NCBI RefSeq assembly: GCF_001570565.1
Contig: NZ_BBXE01000014.1
Coordinates: forward strand, 186,001 to 250,000
Length of the DNA: 64,000 bases
Reading direction: 5' to 3'
Source: Herbidospora yilanensis
GTDB lineage: Bacteria > Actinomycetota > Actinomycetes > Streptosporangiales > Streptosporangiaceae
Part shown: piece by piece, positions 4,475 to 23,384 of the stretch
How the letters are laid out: each line of letters starts with the position of its first letter
Numbering within the stretch: position 1 is the first letter of the stretch
Made by a program: the position numbers and the translations under genes
The notes under the pieces: model-generated
What the model saw: only the letters and a program-made list of their open reading frames with translations
Database searches by the model: none
Told to the model about the DNA's origin: nothing

Positions 4475-4555
4475 CACGCTGCGAGTATGGCACGTCACCC
4501 CGACAGAACCCGGAGCCCTCTTCGTGATCTCGCGCGTTTTGTCGCCCGGCGCGGC

Positions 4556-4561
4556 TAGGGT
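4556..4561 (+). promoter_or_regulatory. -10-like hexamer of the SWIM-MoxR-VWA operon
   Basis: TAGGGT ends 7 nt before the GTG at 4569. The distance fits a leaderless transcript starting at or next to the start codon. The divergent LAL gene has TACTCG at 4482-4487 in the same relation, so both promoters share the 94-bp gap. Confidence 0.5.
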
Positions 4562-4568
4562 GCGGCGC

Positions 4569-5888
4569 GTGATCGAACGATGGAGTCGAGACCAGGTGCT
4601 GGCGCTCGCGCCCGACGCCGCCTCGCAGAAGGCGGCCAGTGGGGTGAGCGCGCCCAGGAAGTGGTCCGCCATGGGGGTGAGCGGATCGGCGTTGTGGGGC
4701 GAGTGCGCCGGGTCCGGGTCGAAGCCCTACCAGGCGTGCGTCGACCTGTCCGAGCCCGCCTACCGCTGCAGTTGCCCCAGCAGGAAGTTCCCCTGCAAAC
4801 ACGCCCTGGGCCTGCTCCTGCTGTGGTCGGCCGACGGCGTGCCGCCCGCCGCCGAACTCGCCCCCTGGGCGGCCGAGTGGTTCGCCCAGCGGGCCGCGCG
4901 GGCCGAGAAGGCCGCCGAGAAGAAGACCGCGGAGAAGGCCGAGCCCTCCGCCGCGAAGCCCGACGAGGGCCGGGCCCGGCAGCGTGAAGAGCGGGTCACG
5001 GCCGGGCTGGCCGAGCTCGAACGCTGGTTGTCCGACCAGGTCGCGAGCGGCCTGTCCGACGCGCGGCAGACGGGCCTGGCCGAGTGGAGCGACCTGGCCA
5101 AGCGGCTCGTCGACGCCCAGGCGCCGGGCCTGGCCGGGACGTTCTCGGGGCTCACGCGGGTCTTCCGCGACGAGAACTGGCCGGGCCGGCTGCTCGGCGA
5201 ATACGCCATGGTCCACCTGCTGGCCGTGGCCCACCGCCGGGCGGCCGAGCTGCCCGGCGACCTGCGCGAGACGGTGCGCCAGCGGGTCGGCTACCAGGTG
5301 GCCAAGGAGACCGTGCTGGCCCTGCCGCCGATCCGCGACGAGTGGCAGGTCATCGCCCTGCGCGACGAGGAACGCGACCGGTTGTTGTCGCGGCGCGTCT
5401 GGCTCCACGGCCGGGCGACCGGCCGCGTGGCGCTGGTGTTGTCGTTCGCGCCGCCCGGCCAGCCGCTCGACGCGTCGCTGGTGCCCGGCACCCGGGTCGA
5501 CGCCGACGTCTCCTACTATCCGGGCGCGGCGCCGCTGCGGGCCCTGATCGCCGACCGCTACGGCCCGGCCGTGCCCGCCAGGGCGCCCGCCTCGGGGGTG
5601 ACCGTCGAGGGCGTGCCGCAGGTGATCGCCGACGTGCTGACCCGCGACCCGTGGACCGAGTCGTGGCCGCTGGTGCTCACCGGCGCCCGGGTCGGCCGCG
5701 ACGGCAAGGAGTGGTGCCTTCTGGGCGACTCGGGCCGGGGCCTCCGGCTTCACCCGTCGGCCGGTGATCCGTGGAAGCTGGTCGCGGTCTCGGGCGGCCA
5801 TCCGGTGACGGTCGCCGTGGAATGGACTCCCGACGGCCTGCGTCCCCTCACCACGTGGGACGAAAACGACGAGGTGGTGGTCCTGTGA
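4569..5888 (+). CDS. SWIM zinc-finger protein, first gene of the MoxR/VWA operon
   Basis: A 439-aa protein with a SWIM zinc finger: C67-x-C69-x6-C76-x-H78 (CSCPSRKFPCKH), followed by the helix ALGLLLLW. SWIM motifs bind zinc and mediate DNA or protein contacts. After it comes a Lys/Ala/Glu-rich charged linker (about residues 105-140), then an unassigned helical and beta region to the end. The GTG start is fixed by the -10-like TAGGGT 7 nt upstream; longer versions of the frame run into the LAL gene's promoter and start. It overlaps the next gene by four bases (GTGA), so the two are translationally coupled. It is the likely nucleic-acid or substrate-recognition partner of this operon, by inference. 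Confidence 0.87.
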   Translation: MIERWSRDQVLALAPDAASQKAASGVSAPRKWSAMGVSGSALWGECAGSGSKPYQACVDLSEPAYRCSCPSRKFPCKHALGLLLLWSADGVPPAAELAPWAAEWFAQRAARAEKAAEKKTAEKAEPSAAKPDEGRARQREERVTAGLAELERWLSDQVASGLSDARQTGLAEWSDLAKRLVDAQAPGLAGTFSGLTRVFRDENWPGRLLGEYAMVHLLAVAHRRAAELPGDLRETVRQRVGYQVAKETVLALPPIRDEWQVIALRDEERDRLLSRRVWLHGRATGRVALVLSFAPPGQPLDASLVPGTRVDADVSYYPGAAPLRALIADRYGPAVPARAPASGVTVEGVPQVIADVLTRDPWTESWPLVLTGARVGRDGKEWCLLGDSGRGLRLHPSAGDPWKLVAVSGGHPVTVAVEWTPDGLRPLTTWDENDEVVVL

Positions 5889-7288
5889 GGCTCGATCGGC
5901 GCAACGGGTGGAACGAGCTCGTCTCCACCGCTCTCGTGGGGACCGAGCGCCGGGGCCTCGACACCCCCTCCGACCTGCTGGAGCAGGCCGCCGCGCAGGT
6001 GGTGGCCCGCCGGGCGGGGGAGCGGCCCGGCGCCGGGATCCCGCTCGCCGGGGCGCCCGCCGACGGCGCGCCGCCGGTCCCGGCGAAGGCCGCCGACCGG
6101 CTGGCCCGGCTGCTGGGCGGCGAGTTCGCCCGGGTGCTGCCCGAATGGCTGGCGCTGGCGGCCGGCCGGTCGCTGCGTGTCCCGGCGCGGCTGCTGCCGC
6201 AGTTGCTCGCGGCCGGAACACGCGACCGGTCGATCCGGGCCGACCTCGCCGTCGTGGCGGGGGCCAGGGGGCGCTGGCTCGCCCGGCTCAACCCCGACTG
6301 GGGCTACCTCCTCCAAGAGAGCTCGGGCGGGGCCCCGGACCAGGCGGGCCTCGACCACGGGCCGTGGGAGTTCGGCACCCGCGGCGACCGCCAGGCCTTC
6401 CTCGCCGCCCTGCGGGCGGCCTCCCCCGACGAGGCCAGAGACCTCCTGGAGGTCACCTGGCCGAAGGAGGAGCCCGACGACCGGGCCGCCTTCGTCGCGG
6501 TCCTGGCCGACGGGCTGACCATGGCCGACGAGCCCTTCCTGGAGAAGGCGCTCGACGACCGCCGCCGCGAGGTCCGGCAGGCCGCCGCCGACCTGCTCAC
6601 CCGGCTGCCCGACTCCCGGCTCGGCCGGCGCATGGCCGTGCGGGCCGCGTCGCTGCTCACCCGCGACGGCTCCCGGCTCACCGCGGTCGCGCCGACGGCC
6701 TGCGACTCCGTCATGGAGCGCGACGGCGTCCGGTCCCGGCCGCCGGCGGGCACCGGGCCGCGTAGCTGGTGGTTGCAGCAGGTCGTCGCGCACACCCCGC
6801 TCCGGTTCTGGCCCGGCCACCTCGGCGCCGAACCCGCCGAGCTGGTCCGGATGACGATCGGCGACTGGGCCCGGGAGATCCACATGGGCTGGATCCGGGC
6901 CGCGATCCTCCAGGACGACCCCGTCTGGGCCCGCGCGCTGTTCGACGTCGAACCGCTGACCGACCTGCTGGCCGTCCTGCCGCCCGACGAGCGGTCCTGG
7001 CGGGCGGCCGAGATCGTCCGGGCGGGGAACGTCGACGGGCAGCTCATCATGATGCTCGGCGGAGTGCCCGGCCCGTGGAGCGGGCCGCTCGCGGCGGCCG
7101 TGCTCCAGCGGGTCGCCGACATCGCCTCCAGCCAGCCGTGGAACGCGGGCGAACTGGCCCGCCTGGCGGGCGAGCGGCTCGACCCGGCCGGCACCTACGA
7201 CCTCGACCAGATGCCCGACATCGGCGAACTGCGGACCGCCGCCGCCCTGCTCCGCTTCCGTTCCGACATGATCAAGGAGTTCTCGTGA
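5885..7288 (+). CDS. DUF5691 family protein
   Basis: A 467-aa protein of the DUF5691 type, known to me only as a companion of SWIM, MoxR and VWA genes. It begins NGWNELVSTALVGTERRG and continues as amphipathic helices rich in Arg, Ala, Leu and Asp (for example DDRRREVRQAAADLLTRLPD near residue 225), which look like HEAT/ARM-type helical repeats. No catalytic motif, signal peptide or membrane segment is visible. A scaffold role between the zinc-finger protein and the ATPase is possible but only inferred. The GTG start overlaps the SWIM gene stop, and its own stop overlaps the next start (GTGA). Confidence 0.8.
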   Translation: MRLDRRNGWNELVSTALVGTERRGLDTPSDLLEQAAAQVVARRAGERPGAGIPLAGAPADGAPPVPAKAADRLARLLGGEFARVLPEWLALAAGRSLRVPARLLPQLLAAGTRDRSIRADLAVVAGARGRWLARLNPDWGYLLQESSGGAPDQAGLDHGPWEFGTRGDRQAFLAALRAASPDEARDLLEVTWPKEEPDDRAAFVAVLADGLTMADEPFLEKALDDRRREVRQAAADLLTRLPDSRLGRRMAVRAASLLTRDGSRLTAVAPTACDSVMERDGVRSRPPAGTGPRSWWLQQVVAHTPLRFWPGHLGAEPAELVRMTIGDWAREIHMGWIRAAILQDDPVWARALFDVEPLTDLLAVLPPDERSWRAAEIVRAGNVDGQLIMMLGGVPGPWSGPLAAAVLQRVADIASSQPWNAGELARLAGERLDPAGTYDLDQMPDIGELRTAAALLRFRSDMIKEFS

Positions 7289-8370
7289 CGACCCCCACCG
7301 TCCTGCGGCCCCACGCGGAAGACCAGTACGCCGACGAACTGGCCGTCCTGGCCAAGCACGACGACCGGCCGCGCCCGCCCGGCTGGCGGTTGTCGCCGTG
7401 GGCGGTGACCACCTACGTCCTGGGCGACGCGAACCACCCCGGCGGCGTGATCACCCCGAAGTACATCGGCCCGCGCCGCATCGTCGAGGTCGCCGTCGCC
7501 ACCCTGGCCACCGACCGGGCGCTGCTGCTGCTCGGCGTGCCCGGCACCGCCAAGACCTGGTTGTCGGAACACCTGGCCGCCGCCGTCTCCGGCGACTCGA
7601 CCCTGCTGGTCCAGGGCACCGCCGGAACCGCCGAAGAGGCCGTCCGCTACGGCTGGAACTACGCCCGCCTGCTCGCCGAGGGCCCCTCACGCGAGGCGCT
7701 GACCCCCAGCCCCGTGATGCGGGCCATGGCCGAGGGCCGGCTGGCCCGGGTCGAGGAGCTGACCCGCATGCCCTCCGACGTGCAAGACGCGCTGATCACC
7801 GTGTTGTCCGAGAAGACGCTGCCGATCCCCGAGCTCAACCAGGAGGTCCAGGCGGCCAAGGGCTTCAACGTGATCGCCACCGCCAACGACCGCGACCGCG
7901 GCGTCAACGAGTTGTCGAGCGCGCTGCGCCGCCGGTTCAACACGGTGGTGCTGCCCGTCCCGGCCTCGGCCGAGGAGGAGGTGGAGATCGTCTCCCGCCG
8001 GGTCGCCCAGCTCGGCCGGTCCCTCGAACTGCCCGAGACCCCCGCGGGCCTGGAGGAGATCCGCCGGGTCGTCACGGTCTTCCGCGAGCTGCGCTCGGGG
8101 GTGACCTCCGACGGCCGCACCAAGGTCAAGTCGCCCAGCGGCACTCTGTCGACCGCCGAGGCGATCTCGGTCCTGACCAGCGGCATCGCTCTGGCGGCCC
8201 ACTTCGGCGACGGCGTGTTGCGGCCGTCCGACGTCGCGGCCGGGATCGTCGGGGCGGTCGTGCAGGATCCGGTGTCCGACCGGGTGGTCTGGCAGGAATA
8301 CCTGGAGACGGTCGTCAGGGAACGCGAGGAGTGGCGTGACTTCTACCGCGCCTGCCGGGACGCCGGCTGA
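7285..8370 (+). CDS. MoxR-family AAA+ ATPase
   Basis: A 361-aa AAA+ ATPase of the MoxR branch, whose members act as chaperones that remodel or activate partner proteins together with VWA-domain proteins. Walker A is GVPGTAKT (residues 84-91). Sensor 1 is NVIATANDRD (about 195-204) and the arginine-finger/sensor-2 region is SSALRRRF. At the Walker B position the chain reads ARVEEL, so the usual Asp-Glu is Glu-Glu. The helix that follows, PSDVQDALITVLSEK, is typical MoxR. The start is GTG, overlapping the preceding gene, and DUF5682 follows after 3 bp. A cognate VWA gene is present two genes downstream. Confidence 0.9.
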   Translation: MTTPTVLRPHAEDQYADELAVLAKHDDRPRPPGWRLSPWAVTTYVLGDANHPGGVITPKYIGPRRIVEVAVATLATDRALLLLGVPGTAKTWLSEHLAAAVSGDSTLLVQGTAGTAEEAVRYGWNYARLLAEGPSREALTPSPVMRAMAEGRLARVEELTRMPSDVQDALITVLSEKTLPIPELNQEVQAAKGFNVIATANDRDRGVNELSSALRRRFNTVVLPVPASAEEEVEIVSRRVAQLGRSLELPETPAGLEEIRRVVTVFRELRSGVTSDGRTKVKSPSGTLSTAEAISVLTSGIALAAHFGDGVLRPSDVAAGIVGAVVQDPVSDRVVWQEYLETVVREREEWRDFYRACRDAG

Positions 8371-8373
8371 CCG

Positions 8374-10542
8374 ATGACCATCACCCTGCTGGGCGTCCGC
8401 CACCACGGCCCCGGGTCCGCCCGCGCCGTGGTGGCCGAACTGGCCCGACTGAGACCCGACATCGTGCTGATCGAGGGCCCGCCGGAGGCCGACGGCCTCG
8501 TCGCCCTGGCCGCCGACCCCGACATGGAACCGCCGGTGGCGCTGCTGGCCCACGTGCCGGGCGACCCGACCAAGGCCGCCTTCTGGCCGTTCGCCGCGTT
8601 CTCCCCGGAATGGCAGGCCCTGCGGTACGCGGCGGAGGCGGGCGTCCCGGCCCGCTTCTGCGACCTCCCGGCGGCCCACTCGATGGCCGGGAAGGACGAC
8701 GCCGGCCAGGACGGCGACGACGTGACGCCGGTCCAGGCCGTGCGCGTCGACCCCATCGCCTCGCTCGCCGCCGCCGCCGGCTACGACGACCCCGAGCGCT
8801 GGTGGGAGGACGCCGTCGAGCACCGCGGCGACACCCCCTTCGAGGTCATCGCCGAGGCCATGGCCGCCGTCCGCGAGGGCTACACGCCCGACGAGAAGGA
8901 GGCCCGGCGGGAGGCCTACATGCGCCGGACCGTCCGGGTCGCGATCAAAGAGGGCTTCACCAACATCGCGGTCGTGTGCGGCGCCTGGCACGTCCCGGCG
9001 CTGAGCTCGATCGGCCCGGCCGCGGCCGACGACCGGATCCTCAAGGGCCTGCCGAAGGTCAAGGCCGAGATGACCTGGGTGCCGTGGACCCACGGCCGGC
9101 TCGCCCACTGGAGCGGCTACGGCGCGGGCGTCTCCTCGCCGGGCTGGTACGCCCACCTGTTCGCCACCCCCGACCGCCCGGTCGAGCGGTGGCTGGCCGC
9201 CGCCGCCGGAGTGCTGCGCGACGAGGGGCTTCCCGTCTCGTCCGCCCACGTCATCGAGTCGGTGCGGCTGGCGCGGAGCCTGGCGGTCATCCGGAACCGG
9301 CCCCTGGCCGGGCTGGCCGAGGTCACCGAGGCCGCGCGGGCCGTGTTGTGCGAGGGCGACGAGCTGCCCGTCGAGCTGATCCAGCGGCGCATGGTCGTGG
9401 GGGAGCGGCTCGGCCACGTCCCCGACTCGACGCCGATGGTCCCGCTGCAACGCCATCTGCGCGAGGAGCAGCGGCGGCTCCGGCTCAAGCCCGAGGCGCT
9501 CGACCGCGAACTCGAACTCGACCTGCGCAAGCCGCTCGACCTCGACCGCAGCCGCCTGCTGCACCGGCTCAGGCTGCTCAACGTCCCGTGGGGCGAACCC
9601 CGCCAGACCCGGGGCAAGGGCACCTTCAAGGAGGCCTGGGCGCTCCAGTGGCGGCCCGAGTTCGACATCTCGCTCATCGAGGCCGCGCCGCTCGGGGTGA
9701 CCGTCCCGGCCGCCGCCACCGCGAAGATCGCCGAGCTGGCCGGCCGCGAGGGCGCGGCGCTGGCCGACCTCACCGGTCTCGTCGAGCGGGCGCTGCTCGC
9801 CGACCTGCCCGCGTCGCTGCCGGCCGTGCTGGCCGCGATCGGCGACCGGGCCGCCGTCGACACCGACATCCGCCACCTCATGGCCGCGCTGCCCGCACTG
9901 GTCAGAGCCCAGCGTTACGGCGACGTCCGGGGCACCCCAGCCGAGGGGCTGGCCGTGATCGCCACGTCGCTGCTGGCCCGGATCTGCGCCGGGTTGTCGG
10001 CCGCCGTGTCGGGGCTCGACGACGAGAACGCGCGCGGCATGGTCGTCCACATCGACGCCGTGACCAGCGCGTCGGCGCTGCTCGACGAGGGGCGCGACCG
10101 CTGGCTGGGCGCGCTGCGCGCCCTCGCCGACCGGACCGGCCTGCCCGGGGTCATCGAGGGCCGGATCGTCCGCATCCTGTTCGACGGCGACCGGCTCGGC
10201 GACGCCGACGCGCGCATGTCGCGGGCCGTCTCGCTCGCCCATCCGCCCGCGCGGGCGGCGGCCTGGATCGAGGGTTTCCTGTCCGGCGGCGGGCTGCTGC
10301 TGGTCCACGACCCGCGCCTGCTGGCCATGGTCGACGACTGGCTCGTGGGCCTGCGCGGCGACGCGTTCGTGGAGGTCCTGCCGCTGCTGCGGCGGACCTT
10401 CGGCTCCTTCGCGCCGCCCGAGCGGCGCTCGATCGCGAGCCGCGTCCGGTCGGGCTCGGCCACCGAGAAAGACATCGAATACGACGACGAGCGCGCCGCC
10501 CCGGCCGTGCGCACCGTCATGGGCATCCTGGGGAGCGGCTGA
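8374..10542 (+). CDS. DUF5682 family protein, possible TIKI/TraB/EreA-like hydrolase fold
   Basis: A 722-aa cytosolic protein of the DUF5682 family. The N-terminal ~210 residues show GVRHHGPGS (7-15), an acidic LIEGPP (E34), and a late GAWHVPAL with H206. This G-x-x-H / E / H layout resembles the TIKI, TraB and erythromycin-esterase-like (ChaN/EreA) superfamily, where His and Glu bind metal or activate water. That relation is my inference from motifs only. The C-terminal ~500 residues are helical with no recognised motif. It is the best candidate for the effector or enzyme of the operon, with MoxR and VWA acting on it. Its stop overlaps the VWA start by one base (TGATG). Confidence 0.82.
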   Translation: MTITLLGVRHHGPGSARAVVAELARLRPDIVLIEGPPEADGLVALAADPDMEPPVALLAHVPGDPTKAAFWPFAAFSPEWQALRYAAEAGVPARFCDLPAAHSMAGKDDAGQDGDDVTPVQAVRVDPIASLAAAAGYDDPERWWEDAVEHRGDTPFEVIAEAMAAVREGYTPDEKEARREAYMRRTVRVAIKEGFTNIAVVCGAWHVPALSSIGPAAADDRILKGLPKVKAEMTWVPWTHGRLAHWSGYGAGVSSPGWYAHLFATPDRPVERWLAAAAGVLRDEGLPVSSAHVIESVRLARSLAVIRNRPLAGLAEVTEAARAVLCEGDELPVELIQRRMVVGERLGHVPDSTPMVPLQRHLREEQRRLRLKPEALDRELELDLRKPLDLDRSRLLHRLRLLNVPWGEPRQTRGKGTFKEAWALQWRPEFDISLIEAAPLGVTVPAAATAKIAELAGREGAALADLTGLVERALLADLPASLPAVLAAIGDRAAVDTDIRHLMAALPALVRAQRYGDVRGTPAEGLAVIATSLLARICAGLSAAVSGLDDENARGMVVHIDAVTSASALLDEGRDRWLGALRALADRTGLPGVIEGRIVRILFDGDRLGDADARMSRAVSLAHPPARAAAWIEGFLSGGGLLLVHDPRLLAMVDDWLVGLRGDAFVEVLPLLRRTFGSFAPPERRSIASRVRSGSATEKDIEYDDERAAPAVRTVMGILGSG

Positions 10543-11729
10543 TGGACGTGCACGACGACGAGCGGGCCCGCCGCTGGCGGCTGGTCCTCGGCGGCGAGGC
10601 CGCGAACGCGCCCGGCGGCGGCCTGGGCGACCTGTCGGGCGCCGACGCCGGCATGGACGCCGCCCTGGCCGCCCTCTACGACCTCGACGGCGACGGCGAG
10701 GCGGCGCCCCGCTCGGCCGGGCTGGGCGGTTCGGCGCCCCGGGTGTCCCGGTGGCTGGGCGACATCCGCACCTACTTCCCGTCGACGGTCGTCCAGGTCA
10801 TGCAGAAGGACGCCATCGACCGCCTCGACCTGAGCCGCCTGCTGCTGGAACCGGAGATGCTCGAGGCCGTCGAGCCCGACGTCCACCTGGTCGGCACCCT
10901 GCTGTCGCTCAACCGGGTGATGCCCGAGCAGGCCCGCGAGTCGGCGCGGGTGGTCGTCCGCAAGGTCGTCCACGAGCTGGAGAGGAAGCTCCAGCACCGC
11001 ACCCGGGCGGCGGTGACCGGCGCGCTGAACCGGGCCGCCCGCACCAACCGCCCGCGACGCCCGGCCGACATCGACTGGGACCGGACCATCCGGGCGAACC
11101 TCAAGAACTACCTGCCCGACCGCAACACGGTCGTGCCGTCGCGCCTGGTCGGCTACGCCCGCAAGCAGCAGTCGGTGCAGCGCGAGGTCGTGCTCTGCAT
11201 CGACCAGAGCGGCTCGATGGCCGCCTCGGTGGTCTATTCGAGCGTGTTCGGGGCGGTGCTGGCCTCGATGCGCTCGCTGAAGACGTCGCTGGTCGTCTTC
11301 GACACCGCCGTCGTCGACCTCACCGACCAGCTCCACGACCCGGTCGAGCTGCTGTTCGGCACCCAGCTCGGCGGCGGCACCGACATCAACCGCGCCATCG
11401 CCTACTCCCAGGGCCTCATCACCCGCCCCGCCAACTCGATCTTCATCCTGATCAGCGACCTCTACGAGGGCGGCGTCCGCGCCGAGATGCTGAAGCGGGT
11501 GGCGGCGATGACGGCGGCGGGCGTCCAGGTGATCGTCCTGCTGGCCCTGTCCGACGAGGGCGCGCCCTTCTACGACCACGAGAACGCCGCCGCCCTGGCG
11601 GCGATGGGCGTCCCGGCCTTCGCCTGCACCCCCGACGCCTTCCCCGACCTCATGGCCGCCGCGATCGAACGCCGCGACATCACCGCCTGGGCCGAACGCA
11701 ACCTGGGCGAGGGCAAACAGACCGGCTGA
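10542..11729 (+). CDS. VWA domain protein, partner of the MoxR ATPase
   Basis: A 395-aa protein with a C-terminal von Willebrand factor A domain carrying a complete MIDAS metal site: D221-x-S-x-S (DQSGS), T280 in GGGTDIN, and a third acidic loop at ISDLYEGG. The N-terminal half is helical and charged, with a short Asp/Gly-rich low-complexity stretch near the start. There is no signal peptide or membrane segment, so it acts in the cytosol. MoxR-VWA pairs load metals or remodel complexes in characterised cases such as magnesium or cobalt chelatases and CO dehydrogenase or Rubisco activation. It is the last gene of the operon; 328 bases follow without a gene. Confidence 0.9.
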   Translation: MDVHDDERARRWRLVLGGEAANAPGGGLGDLSGADAGMDAALAALYDLDGDGEAAPRSAGLGGSAPRVSRWLGDIRTYFPSTVVQVMQKDAIDRLDLSRLLLEPEMLEAVEPDVHLVGTLLSLNRVMPEQARESARVVVRKVVHELERKLQHRTRAAVTGALNRAARTNRPRRPADIDWDRTIRANLKNYLPDRNTVVPSRLVGYARKQQSVQREVVLCIDQSGSMAASVVYSSVFGAVLASMRSLKTSLVVFDTAVVDLTDQLHDPVELLFGTQLGGGTDINRAIAYSQGLITRPANSIFILISDLYEGGVRAEMLKRVAAMTAAGVQVIVLLALSDEGAPFYDHENAAALAAMGVPAFACTPDAFPDLMAAAIERRDITAWAERNLGEGKQTG

Positions 11730-18349: not shown

Positions 18350-18481
18350 CAGGCCGCTCCCCGATGGGTGGTCCATATCCCGAGTCGTGCCTTCCTCCTT
18401 ACGATGCCCCCTGGTCGCCAGGTTAAGTCATTACGTGATGCCGTTGTCTCAGGGGAGGCCCAATTTGTCGGTGAGACCTGT

Positions 18482-18487
18482 TAGCTT
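18482..18487 (+). promoter_or_regulatory. -10-like hexamer for sbcD
   Basis: TAGCTT ends 8 nt before ATG 18496, consistent with a leaderless or nearly leaderless sbcDC transcript. Confidence 0.4.
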
Positions 18488-18495
18488 CGTGCGCC

Positions 18496-19587
18496 ATGCG
18501 GCTGCTGCACACGTCCGACTGGCACTTGGGCCGGTCCTTCCACCGCGAGAGCCTGCTCCCGGCCCAGGCGGCGTTCGCCGACCACCTGGTCGACACCGTC
18601 GCGTCGGAGCGGGTCGACGTCGTGCTGGTGGCCGGTGACGTCTACGACCGGGCGCTCCCGCCGGTCGACGCGGTGGCCCTGTTCGACGAGACGCTGCGCC
18701 GCTTACGCGGCCTCGGCGTCCACACCGTGATCATCAGCGGCAACCACGACTCGCCCGTCCGGCTCGGCTTCGGCGCCGGTCTGATGGACCGCATCCACCT
18801 GCGCACCGACCCCCACCAGGCGTGGTCCCCGATCGTCGTCGACGACGTCGCCTTCTACGGTGTTCCCTACCTGGAGCCCGAGCTCGTCCGCACCCCGTGG
18901 AGCCTCCCCGAGCGCACCCACACGGCCGCCATGACCCACGTCATGGACCGGATACGCTGTGACGACGCCGCCCCCGCGAAGGTGGTGCTGGCCCACGCCT
19001 TCGTCACCGGCGGCGCGGCCAGCGACAGCGAACGCGACATCACCGTCGGCGGGGTGGCCCACGTGCCGCTGCGGGTCTTCGACGGGGCCGGCTACGTCGC
19101 CCTCGGCCACCTCCACGGCCGCCAGACCATGAGCGAGACGGTCCGCTACTCGGGCTCCCCGATCGCCTACTCCTTCTCCGAGACCGACCACGTGAAGGGG
19201 TCGTGGCTGGTCGAGCTGGGCGGCGCGACCGAGTTCGTGCCCGCGCCGGTGCCCCGCCCGCTCGCCCGGCTGCGGGGGCGCATCGACGACCTGCTCGCGC
19301 TCCCGCCGTCCGACGACTGGATCCAGGCGACGCTGACCGATCCCGTCCGGCCCAAGGCCGCGATGGAGCGGCTGCGGTCCCGGTTCCCCCACACCGTCGA
19401 CCTCCAGTTCGCCCCCGACGACGTGCCCGAGGCGGCGCCCGCGCGGCCCCGGCTGGCCGGGCGGCCCGAGATCGACGTCGCGCTCGACTTCGTCCGCGAG
19501 GTCCGCGGCGAGGCGGCCGACCCCGACGAGCGCCGGATCCTCGAAGAGGCCGCGATGGCCTGCCGCATCAGGGAGACGACCGCCTGA
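18496..19587 (+). CDS. sbcD: exonuclease SbcCD, nuclease subunit SbcD (Mre11-like)
   Basis: A 363-aa metallophosphoesterase nuclease subunit. The five conserved motifs are visible: TSDWHLG (D8, H10), VAGDVYDRA, ISGNHDSP, a His in VLAHAFVTGG, and GHLHGRQ, which together bind two Mn2+ ions. With SbcC it cleaves hairpins and blocked double-strand DNA ends. The C-terminal ~120 residues form the capping region that contacts SbcC. The stop overlaps the sbcC start (TGATG), so the two are translated together. Confidence 0.95.
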   Translation: MRLLHTSDWHLGRSFHRESLLPAQAAFADHLVDTVASERVDVVLVAGDVYDRALPPVDAVALFDETLRRLRGLGVHTVIISGNHDSPVRLGFGAGLMDRIHLRTDPHQAWSPIVVDDVAFYGVPYLEPELVRTPWSLPERTHTAAMTHVMDRIRCDDAAPAKVVLAHAFVTGGAASDSERDITVGGVAHVPLRVFDGAGYVALGHLHGRQTMSETVRYSGSPIAYSFSETDHVKGSWLVELGGATEFVPAPVPRPLARLRGRIDDLLALPPSDDWIQATLTDPVRPKAAMERLRSRFPHTVDLQFAPDDVPEAAPARPRLAGRPEIDVALDFVREVRGEAADPDERRILEEAAMACRIRETTA

Positions 19588-22500
19588 TGCGCCTCCACCG
19601 GCTGACGATCTCGGCCTTCGGCTCCTTCCCCGACCGGGAGGAGGTCGACTTCGACCGGCTCGGCGAGGCCGGGCTCTTCCTGATCCACGGTCCTACCGGG
19701 GCGGGCAAGACGACCATCCTCGACGCCGTCTGCTGCGCGTTGTTCGGCGTGGTCCCCGGCCAGCGCAACGACGCCCGGTCGCTGCGCTGCGACCACGCGC
19801 CCCCGGGCAAGGGGCCCCAGGTCGTGCTGGAGACCACCATCCGGGGCCGCACCCTGCGCATCACCCGCTCGCCCGCGTGGGCCCGCCCGAAGCTCCGGGG
19901 GCAGGGCACCACCCAGGAACAGGCCAAGGTGATCGTCCAGGAGCTGCGCGACGGCGACTGGGCCCCGGTCACGACCCGGATCGACGAGGCGGGCGACTTC
20001 GTCGGCGGGCTGCTCGGCATGAACGCCGAGCAGTTCGGCCAGGTGGTGATGCTGCCGCAGGGCGAGTTCGCCAAGTTCCTGCGCTCCTCCGGCGACGACC
20101 GCCGCAAGCTGCTCGAACGGCTGTTCACCGTGCGGGTGTTCACCGGCATGGAGAAGTGGCTCGCCGACCACCGCAGGGAGACCGGCCGGGTCGCCGAGCA
20201 GCTCGCCGAGGAGGTCCGGGCCCGCGCCGACCGCATGCGCGGCGCGGCCGGCGCCGAACTGCTCGCGGAGGCCGGCGACGCCGACGATCCGCTCGAATGG
20301 TCGTCGGCCCTGCTCGCGGCCGCCTCGGCCGCCGTCGCCTCGGCCGAGGCGACGGTCTCCGAGGAGGCGCTCCGGGAGGCCCGCGACCGGCTGGCCGACG
20401 GCCGTGACCTGGCCGACCGGCAGCGCCGCCACACGGCGGCCCGCATCCGCCACGACGAGCTGGAGGCCCGCGCCGACGAACGCGCCGACCTGGAGACCAT
20501 CCTGGCCGAGGCCGCGTCGGCGTCCCGCGTGGTCCCCCTGCTCGACCAGCTCACGGCCCGCGAGCAGAGGGCGTCGGCCGCGTCGGCGGCCTTCGAGGCG
20601 GGCACGTCCGGCCTCACCGAGACCGACCACCGCCAGGCCGAACGCACCCGCCGCGACGAGCTGATCCGCCTTGAGGAGGCCCTCCACGACGAGGCCCGCC
20701 TCCGGGGCGTCATCCGCGAACAGGCTCACCTGAACGACGAGATCGCGACCCTGGAGAAGGGCCTGCGCGCGACCGCCGACCGCCTGGAGGCCGCCACCGC
20801 CGAGTTGTCGGAGGCCGAGGAGCGCCGCGCCGCCGCCGCGGTCGCCGAGGCCGCCCTGCCCGGCGCCGAGGCCGCCCGCGACCGGGCGGGCGACCTGCTC
20901 GAGGCCGTCCGCCGCCGCGACGCCGTCACGGCCGACCTGGCCGGGGCCGCGGCGGCCCGGGAGGCGGCCGGCCACCCGGGCCTGGGCGAACCGGAGCTCG
21001 CCGCCCTCGAACGCGACCGCCGCGACGAACTCGCCCGCCTCGACGCCCTCGACGGCGAGGAGACCCGCCTGACCGCGCTGAGAGCGGGCCGCGAGGCCGC
21101 CGAGGCCGAGGCCGCCCGCCTGGCGGGTGCCGAGGCCGAACTCGCCGACCGGCTGACCACCCTGCCCGGCCTCCTCGCCGAGACCGCCGCCCGCCTGGCC
21201 GCCTGCCGCGAACAGGCCGCCGCCCTGCCGGCGGCCCGATCCCGCCTGGTCGCCGCCGAGGAGCGGCTCGAAGCGGTGATCCGCCGCGACGAACTCGCCG
21301 CCGAACTGGCCGGGGCCGAAGACGCCCGCCGGGTCGCCGTCGACGCCGCGCAGGCGGCCGTCGACCGCCTCCACCAGATCCGCCAGGCCAGAATCGACGG
21401 CATGGCCGCCGAACTGGCCGCCCGCCTGGCCGAGGGCGACCCGTGCGCGGTCTGCGGTTCCCCCGCCCACCCCGCCCCGGCCGAGCCGCTGTCCGAGATG
21501 GCCACCGCCGACGACGAGGAGGCCGCCCAGGCGGAGGCCGACGCCGCCCAGGCGGCCAGGGAGTCGGCCGAGTCCATGGTGGCGGGGCTGGAAAGCCGGC
21601 ACGAACGCGCCGCCGACACCGCCGACGGCCGGTCCCAGGCCGAGGCCGAACAGGCCCGCGAGGAGGCCGGCACCGAGCTGGCCGCCCTGGAGGCCGCCGC
21701 CGCCCGCGAACCCGTGCACCGCGACGAGGCCGCCCGCCTGGAGACGGCCCTCATCGACGTCCGCGAGGCGGAGGCCGAGACCGCTCTGGCCCTCCGCGAA
21801 CTCCAGACCAGGCAGCAGACCTCCCGCGCCGAAGAGGAACGCGTCGAGGTCCGCCTGGCCGCCGCCCTCGACCCGGGTGAGACGGTCTCGTCCCGCCGCG
21901 CCCGCCTCACGGCGGAGGCCGCCGCGATCGCCGCGGCTCGCGCGGCCGAGACGAAGACGACCGCTCTGACCGGCCTCCTCGCCGAGGCCCACCGCCAGGT
22001 GGCGGCCACGATCAGAGGCACCGGCCTGGAGTCCGCCGCTCCCCGCGGGCCGGCCGAGGGCAAGACCGGCGCCGGTCCGGACGGCGATCTTCCACCGGGC
22101 ACCGGTCCCGGCCCTGCGGTCTGGCCCGATGTCCCGGCCGCGCGGGCGCTCCTGGCCGAGGCGCGGCAGGCCGTCGCGGAGCTCACCGCCGTGCTCGACG
22201 GCCGTCTCGCCGCCCGGCAGACCGCCGACCGCCTGACCCGCGAGGTCGGCGACCTGAAGATCAAGGAGAGTGCCGACACCAAGCTCCTCGTGGAGACCAG
22301 GGCCGCCCGGGGCAGGTTCGCCCACGAGGAGTCCGAGCTGACGGGCCGCCTCGACCGGCTGCGCGGCGACGACGCCTCCATCTACGAACGGGTCGAGCGC
22401 CTCCGCGCCGAGACCGAGGCCTACCGCCACGCCGCCGAGCTCTCCGAGGCCCTCCACGAGGCCGGGCGGGAACTGGCCGCCGCGCGGAACGCCGCGCTGG

Positions 22501-23384
22501 CCGCCGCCGTCGACGCGGGCTTCGCCGGCCTCGACGACGTGGCCGCCGCCCGCCGCACCCCGGCCGAGATCGACGAGATGGGCGGCCGGCTGCGCGAGCT
22601 GGGCGACGAACTGGCCGCCGTGGTCCGCACCCTCGCCGACCCCGAACTCCAGGCCGCCGCCGCCCAGCCCCCGCCCGACCTCCCCGCCCTCCAGCGGGCC
22701 GTCGACGAGGCCGACGCGACCCGGTCGGCCCAGGTCTCCGCGCGTGACGGCGCCGTCGCCCGCCTCAGCCGGCTCACCGCGCTGGCCGCCGAACTCGCCG
22801 AGGCGCAGGCCCGCCGCGCCCCCGCCGAGCGCCGCCACCGGCTGGCCCGCCGGATGGCCGAACTCGCCGGCGGCACCTCCGCCGACAACCAGTGGGACAT
22901 GCCCCTGTCGTCCTATGTCCTCGGCGAACGCCTCCGCCAGGTCGCCGACGCCGCCAACGAGCGCCTCTCCCACATGTCCGACGGCCGCTACCTGCTGCGA
23001 TACGACGTGAAGAAGACGGCCGGGCACCGCGGGCGCTCGGGCGGCGGCCTGGGCCTGCGTGTGCTCGACGCCTGGACCGGCGTCGACCGCGACCCGGCCA
23101 CCCTCTCGGGCGGCGAGAGCTTCATCACCTCACTGGCGCTGGCGCTGGGCCTGGCCGACGTGGTCGCGGCCGAGGCGGGCGGCGCCGAGATCGGCACCCT
23201 CTTCGTCGACGAGGGCTTCGGCACCCTCGACGAGGAGACCCTCGACGACGTCCTCGACATCCTCGACTCGCTGCGCGAGGGCGGGCGCGCGGTCGGCGTG
23301 GTCAGCCACGTCGCCGAACTGCGGGTCCGGATCCCGGCCCAGCTCCGCGTCCACAAGGGACGGGCGGGCTCGACCCTGCGCTGA
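19587..23384 (+). CDS. sbcC: exonuclease SbcCD, ATPase subunit SbcC (Rad50-like)
   Basis: A 1265-aa SMC-like ATPase, within the family's usual range. Walker A GPTGAGKTT is at about residues 33-41 and a Q-loop segment follows (VVMLPQGEFAKFL). Long Ala/Glu/Arg-rich coiled coils flank the zinc hook C620-A-V-C623. The ABC signature LSGGESFITSLALALG and Walker B LFVDEGFGTLD are near the C-terminus. Two SbcC dimerise and clamp DNA ends for the SbcD nuclease. The coiled coils make long open frames on the opposite strand (for example 19167-23027), which are not genes. Confidence 0.95.
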   Translation: MRLHRLTISAFGSFPDREEVDFDRLGEAGLFLIHGPTGAGKTTILDAVCCALFGVVPGQRNDARSLRCDHAPPGKGPQVVLETTIRGRTLRITRSPAWARPKLRGQGTTQEQAKVIVQELRDGDWAPVTTRIDEAGDFVGGLLGMNAEQFGQVVMLPQGEFAKFLRSSGDDRRKLLERLFTVRVFTGMEKWLADHRRETGRVAEQLAEEVRARADRMRGAAGAELLAEAGDADDPLEWSSALLAAASAAVASAEATVSEEALREARDRLADGRDLADRQRRHTAARIRHDELEARADERADLETILAEAASASRVVPLLDQLTAREQRASAASAAFEAGTSGLTETDHRQAERTRRDELIRLEEALHDEARLRGVIREQAHLNDEIATLEKGLRATADRLEAATAELSEAEERRAAAAVAEAALPGAEAARDRAGDLLEAVRRRDAVTADLAGAAAAREAAGHPGLGEPELAALERDRRDELARLDALDGEETRLTALRAGREAAEAEAARLAGAEAELADRLTTLPGLLAETAARLAACREQAAALPAARSRLVAAEERLEAVIRRDELAAELAGAEDARRVAVDAAQAAVDRLHQIRQARIDGMAAELAARLAEGDPCAVCGSPAHPAPAEPLSEMATADDEEAAQAEADAAQAARESAESMVAGLESRHERAADTADGRSQAEAEQAREEAGTELAALEAAAAREPVHRDEAARLETALIDVREAEAETALALRELQTRQQTSRAEEERVEVRLAAALDPGETVSSRRARLTAEAAAIAAARAAETKTTALTGLLAEAHRQVAATIRGTGLESAAPRGPAEGKTGAGPDGDLPPGTGPGPAVWPDVPAARALLAEARQAVAELTAVLDGRLAARQTADRLTREVGDLKIKESADTKLLVETRAARGRFAHEESELTGRLDRLRGDDASIYERVERLRAETEAYRHAAELSEALHEAGRELAAARNAALAAAVDAGFAGLDDVAAARRTPAEIDEMGGRLRELGDELAAVVRTLADPELQAAAAQPPPDLPALQRAVDEADATRSAQVSARDGAVARLSRLTALAAELAEAQARRAPAERRHRLARRMAELAGGTSADNQWDMPLSSYVLGERLRQVADAANERLSHMSDGRYLLRYDVKKTAGHRGRSGGGLGLRVLDAWTGVDRDPATLSGGESFITSLALALGLADVVAAEAGGAEIGTLFVDEGFGTLDEETLDDVLDILDSLREGGRAVGVVSHVAELRVRIPAQLRVHKGRAGSTLR

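Follow-up and report, generated by a model that had tools for sequence, protein, structure and literature searches.

In a 64,000-nucleotide stretch of the Herbidospora yilanensis genome (contig NZ_BBXE01000014.1, positions 186,001 to 250,000; the whole stretch is hereafter the window, and coordinates count from its first letter), five genes at 4569-11729 on the forward strand form one operon encoding, in this order, a SWIM zinc-finger protein, a DUF5691 protein, a MoxR-type AAA+ ATPase, a DUF5682 protein and a von Willebrand factor A (VWA) protein. We propose that the operon specifies a DNA-damage-induced protein machine, in which MoxR and VWA would act on DUF5682, a predicted hydrolase, and SWIM and DUF5691 would direct it to nucleic acid; we place the probability of this reading at about 0.55, somewhat better than even. 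The promoter and the DUF5682 fold are supported by computation. We infer the client relation of DUF5682 to MoxR-VWA from the protein families and from gene fusions and, more weakly, the targeting role of SWIM-DUF5691 and the substrate of the hydrolase.

What appears to be new, on sequence comparison and modelling, is the finding that this operon stands behind a damage promoter of PafBC type in actinobacteria, together with the fold and predicted active site of DUF5682. A PubMed Central (PMC) search with SWIM zinc finger, PafBC, DUF5691 and MoxR terms returned, among the matches listed and in their excerpts, none tying the set to PafBC. Joining the Deinococcus operon ddrTUVWX, the Escherichia coli proteins YehLMP and the actinobacterial operon with this fold and predicted site gives families labelled "unknown function" one testable hypothesis, that of a damage-induced, chaperone-activated hydrolase.

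The operon and its relatives

The five open reading frames (ORFs) are joined by overlaps of 4, 4, -3 and 1 bp, exactly as stated in the original prediction of a five-gene operon, made by a model from the letters alone. They are the SWIM protein, the DdrT orthologue (4569-5888, GTG start, 439 residues; PF04434, 26 bits against a cut-off of 19.6); the DUF5691 protein in the DdrU position, which in certain relatives is a fusion with SWIM (5885-7288, GTG start, 467 residues; PF18944, E 8e-138, 461 bits); the YehL-like MoxR ATPase in the DdrV position (7285-8370, GTG start, 361 residues; AAA_5, E 2e-38, 132 bits); the DUF5682 protein in the DdrW position, the counterpart of YehM (8374-10542, ATG start, 722 residues; E 1e-274, 913 bits); and the VWA_CoxE protein, corresponding to DdrX and YehP (10542-11729, ATG start, 395 residues; PF05762, 185 bits), all on the forward strand. 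All five Pfam matches exceed the cut-off, and an NCBIfam scan of the five proteins gave nothing above a family cut-off.

Deinococcus deserti has these five families, likewise ordered, in ddrTUVWX (Deide_18730-18690), a damage-inducible operon whose function is given as unknown (PMC5552922) and which is counted among the Deinococcus radiation-response genes of unknown function (PMC8072749). Radiation induced the SWIM gene more than 10-fold and the VWA gene Deide_18690, Deide_18710 and Deide_18720 more than 5-fold, and the operon is under IrrE/DdrO control with a radiation/desiccation response motif (RDRM) upstream (PMC5552922). Because the gene order agrees, ddrT would be the SWIM gene, ddrU DUF5691, ddrV MoxR, ddrW DUF5682 and ddrX VWA. 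In D. taeanensis, whose ddrTUVWX has a 78-residue gene between ddrV and ddrW (PMC9510100), the annotated locus (L246) likewise runs SWIM, DUF5691, AAA, 78-residue ORF, DUF5682, VWA, and BLASTP identities to the window are 35% for SWIM, 70% for MoxR, 43% for DUF5682 and 54% for VWA; DUF5691 gave no match at 1e-5, the annotated family being the same. Judged by families, order and four BLASTP matches, the window operon is the orthologue of ddrTUVWX, with DdrO/RDRM control in Deinococcus in place of the PafBC-type promoter of the window. A search of the D. taeanensis locus with the published RDRM consensus found a best site with 2 mismatches (3 matches against 1.5 expected by chance), and one with another form of the consensus found no site.

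By identity to the E. coli K-12 proteins, the MoxR, DUF5682 and VWA proteins correspond to YehL (42% over 356 residues), YehM (27%) and YehP (37%), whose genes stand in the same order, and the MoxR protein is YehL-like both by this identity and by its neighbours; YehL is the name of one of seven MoxR subfamilies (PMC3893208). The rest of the yehL-yehM-yehP-yehQ region differs, in that WGR and DUF4132 genes stand upstream in place of SWIM-DUF5691, the E. coli control genome contains no DUF5691, and YehQ has only the SWIM finger in common with the window protein (Pfam), with no phmmer match. A PMC search on the yehL/M/P/Q names surfaced only genome papers among the matches listed, and a PMC search by the name DUF5682 found no paper, so that no proven unrelated function surfaced. 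The earlier statement that the set has no characterised function stands insofar as the function is indeed given as unknown, but the set is not nameless, being ddrTUVWX in Deinococcus and, in its core, YehLMP in E. coli.

For a wider view we compared 80 named-genome loci, the best 80 of 579 confirmed with DUF5682 as bait, which are mostly actinobacterial, interrelated and chosen by DUF5682 similarity; the nearest belong to Sphaerisporangium, Streptosporangium and Nonomuraea. All five genes are present at 71 of them, 48 in the order and orientation of the window and 23, mostly Streptomyces, with SWIM-DUF5691 divergent from MoxR-DUF5682-VWA, which supports the five genes as one conserved unit beyond chance. 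The nine other loci are without one or more genes, several being short contigs or contig ends; a real exception is a Nostocaceae genome (L099), where MoxR-DUF5691-SWIM sits elsewhere in the genome (L142). Adjacency, on which the proposed set depended, is thus the rule, with cyanobacterial exceptions. Among 296 genomes drawn evenly from the phylum, DUF5682 occurs in 21 and DUF5691 above cut-off in 18, and all 18 of the latter also carry DUF5682 at a distance of 1.1-3.3 kb (Fisher p 5e-26, uncorrected for kinship); three further DUF5691 matches, below cut-off, all lie in genomes without DUF5682.

The MoxR/DUF5682/VWA core was found in four layouts. Layout A is that of the window. Layout B resembles E. 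coli yeh and has WGR and/or DUF4132 genes together with a different SWIM protein (L001, L044, L045, L178) or, at its other loci, DUF4132 with no SWIM detected by the profiles used. In layout C, MoxR is followed by a DUF5682-VWA fusion, and in layout D VWA-MoxR stands beside a divergent DUF5682.

A promoter of the PafBC type

The TAGGGT at 4556-4561, which had been noted as promoter-like, turns out to be the -10 element of a longer promoter of PafBC/RecA-NDp type that is conserved in relatives, TTGTCGCCC-GGCGCGGC-TAGGGT, at 4539-4561 on the forward strand (TTGTCG-N11-TAGGGT form). LexA-independent mycobacterial damage promoters have the consensus tTGTCRgtg-8 nt-TannnT (PMC5656591), through which PafBC works (PMC8223512, PMC6789036), and a PafBC-specific -26 motif has been described (PMC11804915); the operon site, TTGTCGCCC-N8-TAGGGT, fits this published consensus. 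Because the hexamer ends just before the start codon, 7 nt ahead of the GTG of the SWIM gene, the operon mRNA is likely leaderless.

The element is shared by relatives of several genera and sits where the operon begins. The strict pattern TTGTCR-N11-TAnnnT precedes SWIM in 35 of 76 named relatives and the starts of the other four genes in none (one DUF5691 and one DUF5682 row, with too short an upstream stretch, were left out), and the shorter TGTCR-N11-TA precedes 57 of 76 SWIM genes versus 2 of 79 DUF5682 genes. With a relaxed form and a wider region, 59 of 76 SWIM genes are preceded by it, the spacer being 11 in 58 of the 59 and the majority sequence TTGTC[AG]GTG; at 49 of these 59 loci an in-frame start codon follows 6-8 nt after the hexamer, a spacing suggestive of leaderless mRNA in the relatives as well. 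The shuffles behind the promoter counts preserve base composition only. SWIM is divergent at 27 loci, 23 of which have the full set of five genes, and every one of the 27 has a second, reversed TTGTCA element on the side of MoxR, its hexamer starting with C instead of T; this pattern, TTGTCA-N11-[TC]AnnnT, was written after some of the sequences had been viewed, and the unmodified TAnnnT form is found there in 0 of 78.

The assignment does not rest on one hexamer, given the set of sites across the 7.85 Mb host genome, where 31 strict sites were found versus 2 for the reversed control. Of 30 sites fetched, 29 are followed by an ORF (taken as the longest to start within 250 nt); one of these ORFs is the SWIM gene of the window, and the other 28 were scanned, with no random-site control for function. 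In 11 of the 28 the Pfam domains belong to DNA repair, replication or recombination: helicase domains in L211, L216 and, of RecQ type, L237, and the domains of an AlkZ-like protein, SbcD, Pol III beta, SSB, UvrA, UvrB, FtsK and a tyrosine integrase. Six of the rest have domains of other kinds, YdjM and two WYL regulators among them, and 11 gave no match. The host recA bears TGTCAGTG-N8-TAGCGT, and the genome has a PafC gene (HTH_PafC, E 6.6e-39, the single match over cut-off). Within the window the sole other strict site is the near-consensus TTGTCGGTG-AGACCTGT-TAGCTT at 18465-18487, just before sbcD-sbcC (18496-23384). The evidence for a damage-type promoter covers actinobacteria and Deinococcus.

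LexA control of the operon was considered and rejected: a degenerate pattern modelled on actinobacterial LexA-like sites, with at most 2 mismatches allowed, matched 77 times in the window versus 49 expected, and none of the matches lies at the promoter. As a separate observation, the WYL-domain regulators of the host genome that stand behind a damage-type promoter (L230, L234) include one with a weak PafC-HTH match. At Streptomyces-type loci among L085-L140, the divergent group of 27, TTGTCAGTG-type elements are found on both divergent sides, suggesting that Streptomyces uses a PafBC-type motif, in contrast to an initial search that reportedly did not find the motif conserved in S. venezuelae (PMC9380542).

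DUF5682 and its partner proteins

The DUF5682 model (predicted local distance difference test, pLDDT, 88.2) consists of an N-domain, approximately residues 1-240, and about 480 further, mainly helical residues. In structure comparison the N-domain has the core fold of the EreA/ChaN/TraB-type (Tiki) superfamily, of which GxxH is a hallmark, and its profile matches TraB in hhalign. The same alignment pairs H10, E34, R179 and H206 with the GxxH, E, R and GxxH of TraB, and all four are kept in 121 of 121 DUF5682 sequences, 6 type D rows having been found via a CHHSP motif, so that their HH was selected for. On the forward strand, the codons of H10-H11, in the first GxxH motif, lie at 8401-8406 (both residues 121/121), that of E34, the predicted catalytic Glu, at 8473-8475, those of R179-E180, the predicted catalytic Arg region, at 8908-8913 (121/121), and that of H206, in the second GxxH motif, at 8989-8991. 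DUF5682 thus resembles the superfamily in core fold, in the H/E/R/H quartet and, in most members, in two GxxH motifs, and differs from it by the roughly 480 extra residues and by having no Pfam match to a member family. In the esterase EreC the active-site set is H50, E78, R261 and H289 (PMC7979712). On the model and the alignment, DUF5682 is a predicted hydrolase. Five structures sharing the EreC fold, including PMT and BcR136, are named in PMC7979712; those two are not among the 50 fold matches listed for the N-domain.

The metal-ligand residues read earlier in the SWIM and VWA proteins held up on alignment. All 44 SWIM proteins aligned, that of the window and 43 of the 76 encoded at named loci, have the ligands C67, C69, C76 and H78 without exception, and all 27 VWA proteins aligned, E. 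coli YehP among them, have D221, S223, S225, T280 and D306, a complete set of metal ion-dependent adhesion site (MIDAS) type. HEAT matches below the Pfam threshold (best E 0.06) are the basis for the putative helical-repeat character of DUF5691. SWIM and DUF5691 form a single ORF at 9 of the 80 named loci and in 2 further genomes, and DUF5682 is fused to VWA at 11 loci in 8 genomes; Pfam on the one fusion scanned (L043) gives DUF5682 at 19-934 and then VWA_CoxE at 963-1184. Because each pair occurs as fused ORFs, we distinguish two physical modules, SWIM-DUF5691 and DUF5682-VWA with MoxR. The comparison thus supports SWIM and DUF5691 as one module and DUF5682 as the partner of MoxR-VWA, the role first guessed for it, the more so as MoxR-DUF5682-VWA persists without this SWIM/DUF5691 type.

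Proposed mechanism

In the mechanism that we propose, damage would activate PafBC in actinobacteria, or remove DdrO in Deinococcus, and the operon would be switched on. SWIM-DUF5691 would recognise a nucleic-acid or nucleoprotein site and bring the hydrolase to a DNA or nucleoprotein lesion; MoxR and VWA would bind DUF5682 and spend ATP to remodel, metallate or load this client, as in other MoxR systems; and the N-domain of DUF5682 would be switched on as a hydrolase, most likely with proteins as substrate. WGR is a nucleic-acid-binding domain, and in the E. coli-like version WGR-DUF4132 proteins would fill the targeting role. As a tentative and bolder conjecture, the genes may represent an unrecognised damage pathway, in which a MoxR-VWA ring, driven by ATP, loads a protease or esterase of EreA/TraB fold onto DNA that is damaged or blocked by protein. 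Loading would go via an exchangeable nucleic-acid-reading module (SWIM-DUF5691 in one lineage, WGR-DUF4132 in another), and the pathway would have come independently under PafBC in actinobacteria and under DdrO in Deinococcus.

Several observations weigh against the proposed machine. Damage induction of the H. yilanensis operon is predicted from promoter sequence, and the window site has CCC in place of the consensus gtg, a triplet mostly conserved in relatives. No exact LexA-type box (CTGT-N8-ACAG) occurs in the 32 kb E. coli yeh stretch, so that damage control is not universal. For Deinococcus, Deide_18700 lies outside the quoted part of Table 2, and by our reading of the columns of Table 4 the operon is present, always with the motif, in 4 of 7 species, D. 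radiodurans not being one of them (PMC5552922); it is consequently not required for radiation resistance as such. EreC is described as needing no metal, and ChaN is a heme binder (PMC7979712), so that the fold alone implies neither metal loading nor catalysis. In the first GxxH motif, 5 of the 11 type B sequences and all 6 of type D have P instead of G. Foldseek against the PDB gave no match at E <= 0.001 for the full model or the N-domain, a PDB sequence-profile search with the N-domain found nothing related (best E 0.65), and the profile comparison with ChaN was weak (20.8%). As to distribution, DUF5682 was found in 0 of 16 same-order or same-class genomes beyond the family, and it stands apart from the other genes in the cyanobacterial loci L099, L187, L189 and L190; since some cyanobacteria hold it apart from MoxR-DUF5691-SWIM, operon linkage is not obligatory.

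Alternative explanations

CoxE is the partner of CoxD, and CoxD-CoxE and RavA-ViaA likewise combine a MoxR ATPase with a VWA partner; the window differs from both by the predicted DUF5682 client and the DNA-damage promoter. This likeness underlies the alternative that survives best, which we consider unlikely all the same: DUF5682 would be a ChaN-like cofactor or metal binder, MoxR-VWA an insertion chaperone of the CoxD-CoxE kind, and the operon would mature a site for metal or heme that is required once damage has occurred. The VWA protein falls in VWA_CoxE; the CO dehydrogenase cluster cannot be assembled without CoxD, which like RavA-ViaA is described as a MoxR system (PMC3893208); and DUF4132/MolR, the neighbour in E. 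coli-type loci, has an old molybdate link (PMC8533742). Heme-binding ChaN (PMC7979712) is among the best DUF5682 fold matches, but the H/E/R/H set known from EreC is kept in every sequence and is not obviously required for cofactor binding alone, nor was a cofactor enzyme recognised in the nine neighbouring ORFs scanned.

A general repair or disaggregation machine for proteins damaged by irradiation or desiccation, with SWIM binding partner proteins or RNA and not DNA, is harder to credit, and we regard it as improbable; it accords poorly with the DNA repair genes among the promoter sharers (11 of the 28 scanned) and with the nucleic-acid-binding WGR of the alternative module.

MoxR and VWA also occur with effector domains in ternary conflict systems, whose common feature is the MoxR-VWA pair with a dedicated third component (Kaur et al. 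2020, PMC7159879); the window operon differs, by Pfam, in having no VMAP, iSTAND, FtsH, beta-propeller or fused effector. A defence island was tried as a candidate and rejected: the PADLOC-DB 2.0.0 scan of the five proteins gave as best match only IetA (E 0.003 and 0.017, MoxR residues 72-101), Pfam found no known toxic effector domain in them, and the nine neighbouring ORFs have ordinary content, including sbcD-sbcC. Of the original pairing of stress response or conflict, stress has gained ground, specifically as DNA damage, through the promoter set and the Deinococcus data, and conflict has found no support. The least probable reading is a MoxR-vWA ternary system that acts against phage or by abortive infection, damage-induced since phages cause damage: the sub-threshold bpMoxR match of the window MoxR (24.1 bits versus a cut-off of 27), the patchy distribution of DUF5682 (21 of 296 actinobacteria, 12 of 299 Pseudomonadota) and its presence on 35 of 72,556 plasmid records, some chromosome-sized, are set against the PADLOC and neighbourhood results, its steady occurrence within the genus (6 of 6 genomes) and the family (14 of 18) and the placing of the operon in a repair regulon.

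Distribution and further observations

The five-gene order is also present in Thiofilum, Leptolyngbya, Deinococcus taeanensis and Rhizobium; Hymenobacter has it with the first two genes fused, and on a Methylosinus plasmid the first four genes are annotated and VWA is not. In the 12 stretches from Pseudomonadota, the phylum of Thiofilum, five keep the window order (L172, L173, L174, L180, L183) and the other seven are E. coli-like. In the Leptolyngbya phylum, where DUF5682 is above cut-off in 10 of 194 genomes, four of eight stretches have the window order (L184, L185, L186, L188), three have DUF5682 without the other genes (L187, L189, L190) and one has layout D.

Strict promoter sites are found beyond layout A as well. 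Of the 13 stretches L042-L054, which are actinobacterial and have layouts B-D, six (L042, L043, L044, L045, L047, L051) have a strict co-directional site no more than about 120 nt before the first ORF of the operon, and L048, L049, L053 and L054 have one farther off or elsewhere; the searched stretches of L046, L050 and L052 contained none. Outside actinobacteria, a candidate site, TTGTCA-N11-TAGGCT, stands at L172:3901, 62 nt before the SWIM match of a five-gene locus from the phylum of Thiofilum.

In two layout C operons, L047 (2326-7266) and L043 (12112-17709), proteins of 1,647 and 1,866 residues, respectively, with no Pfam match at 0.01, are encoded directly before MoxR, and in L042 the first gene encodes a DUF4132 protein. 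In the phage collection the sole match is an unverified record from feces, L250 (MT835988.1), which bears the label bacteriophage; it encodes MoxR-DUF5682-VWA and may be bacterial contamination.

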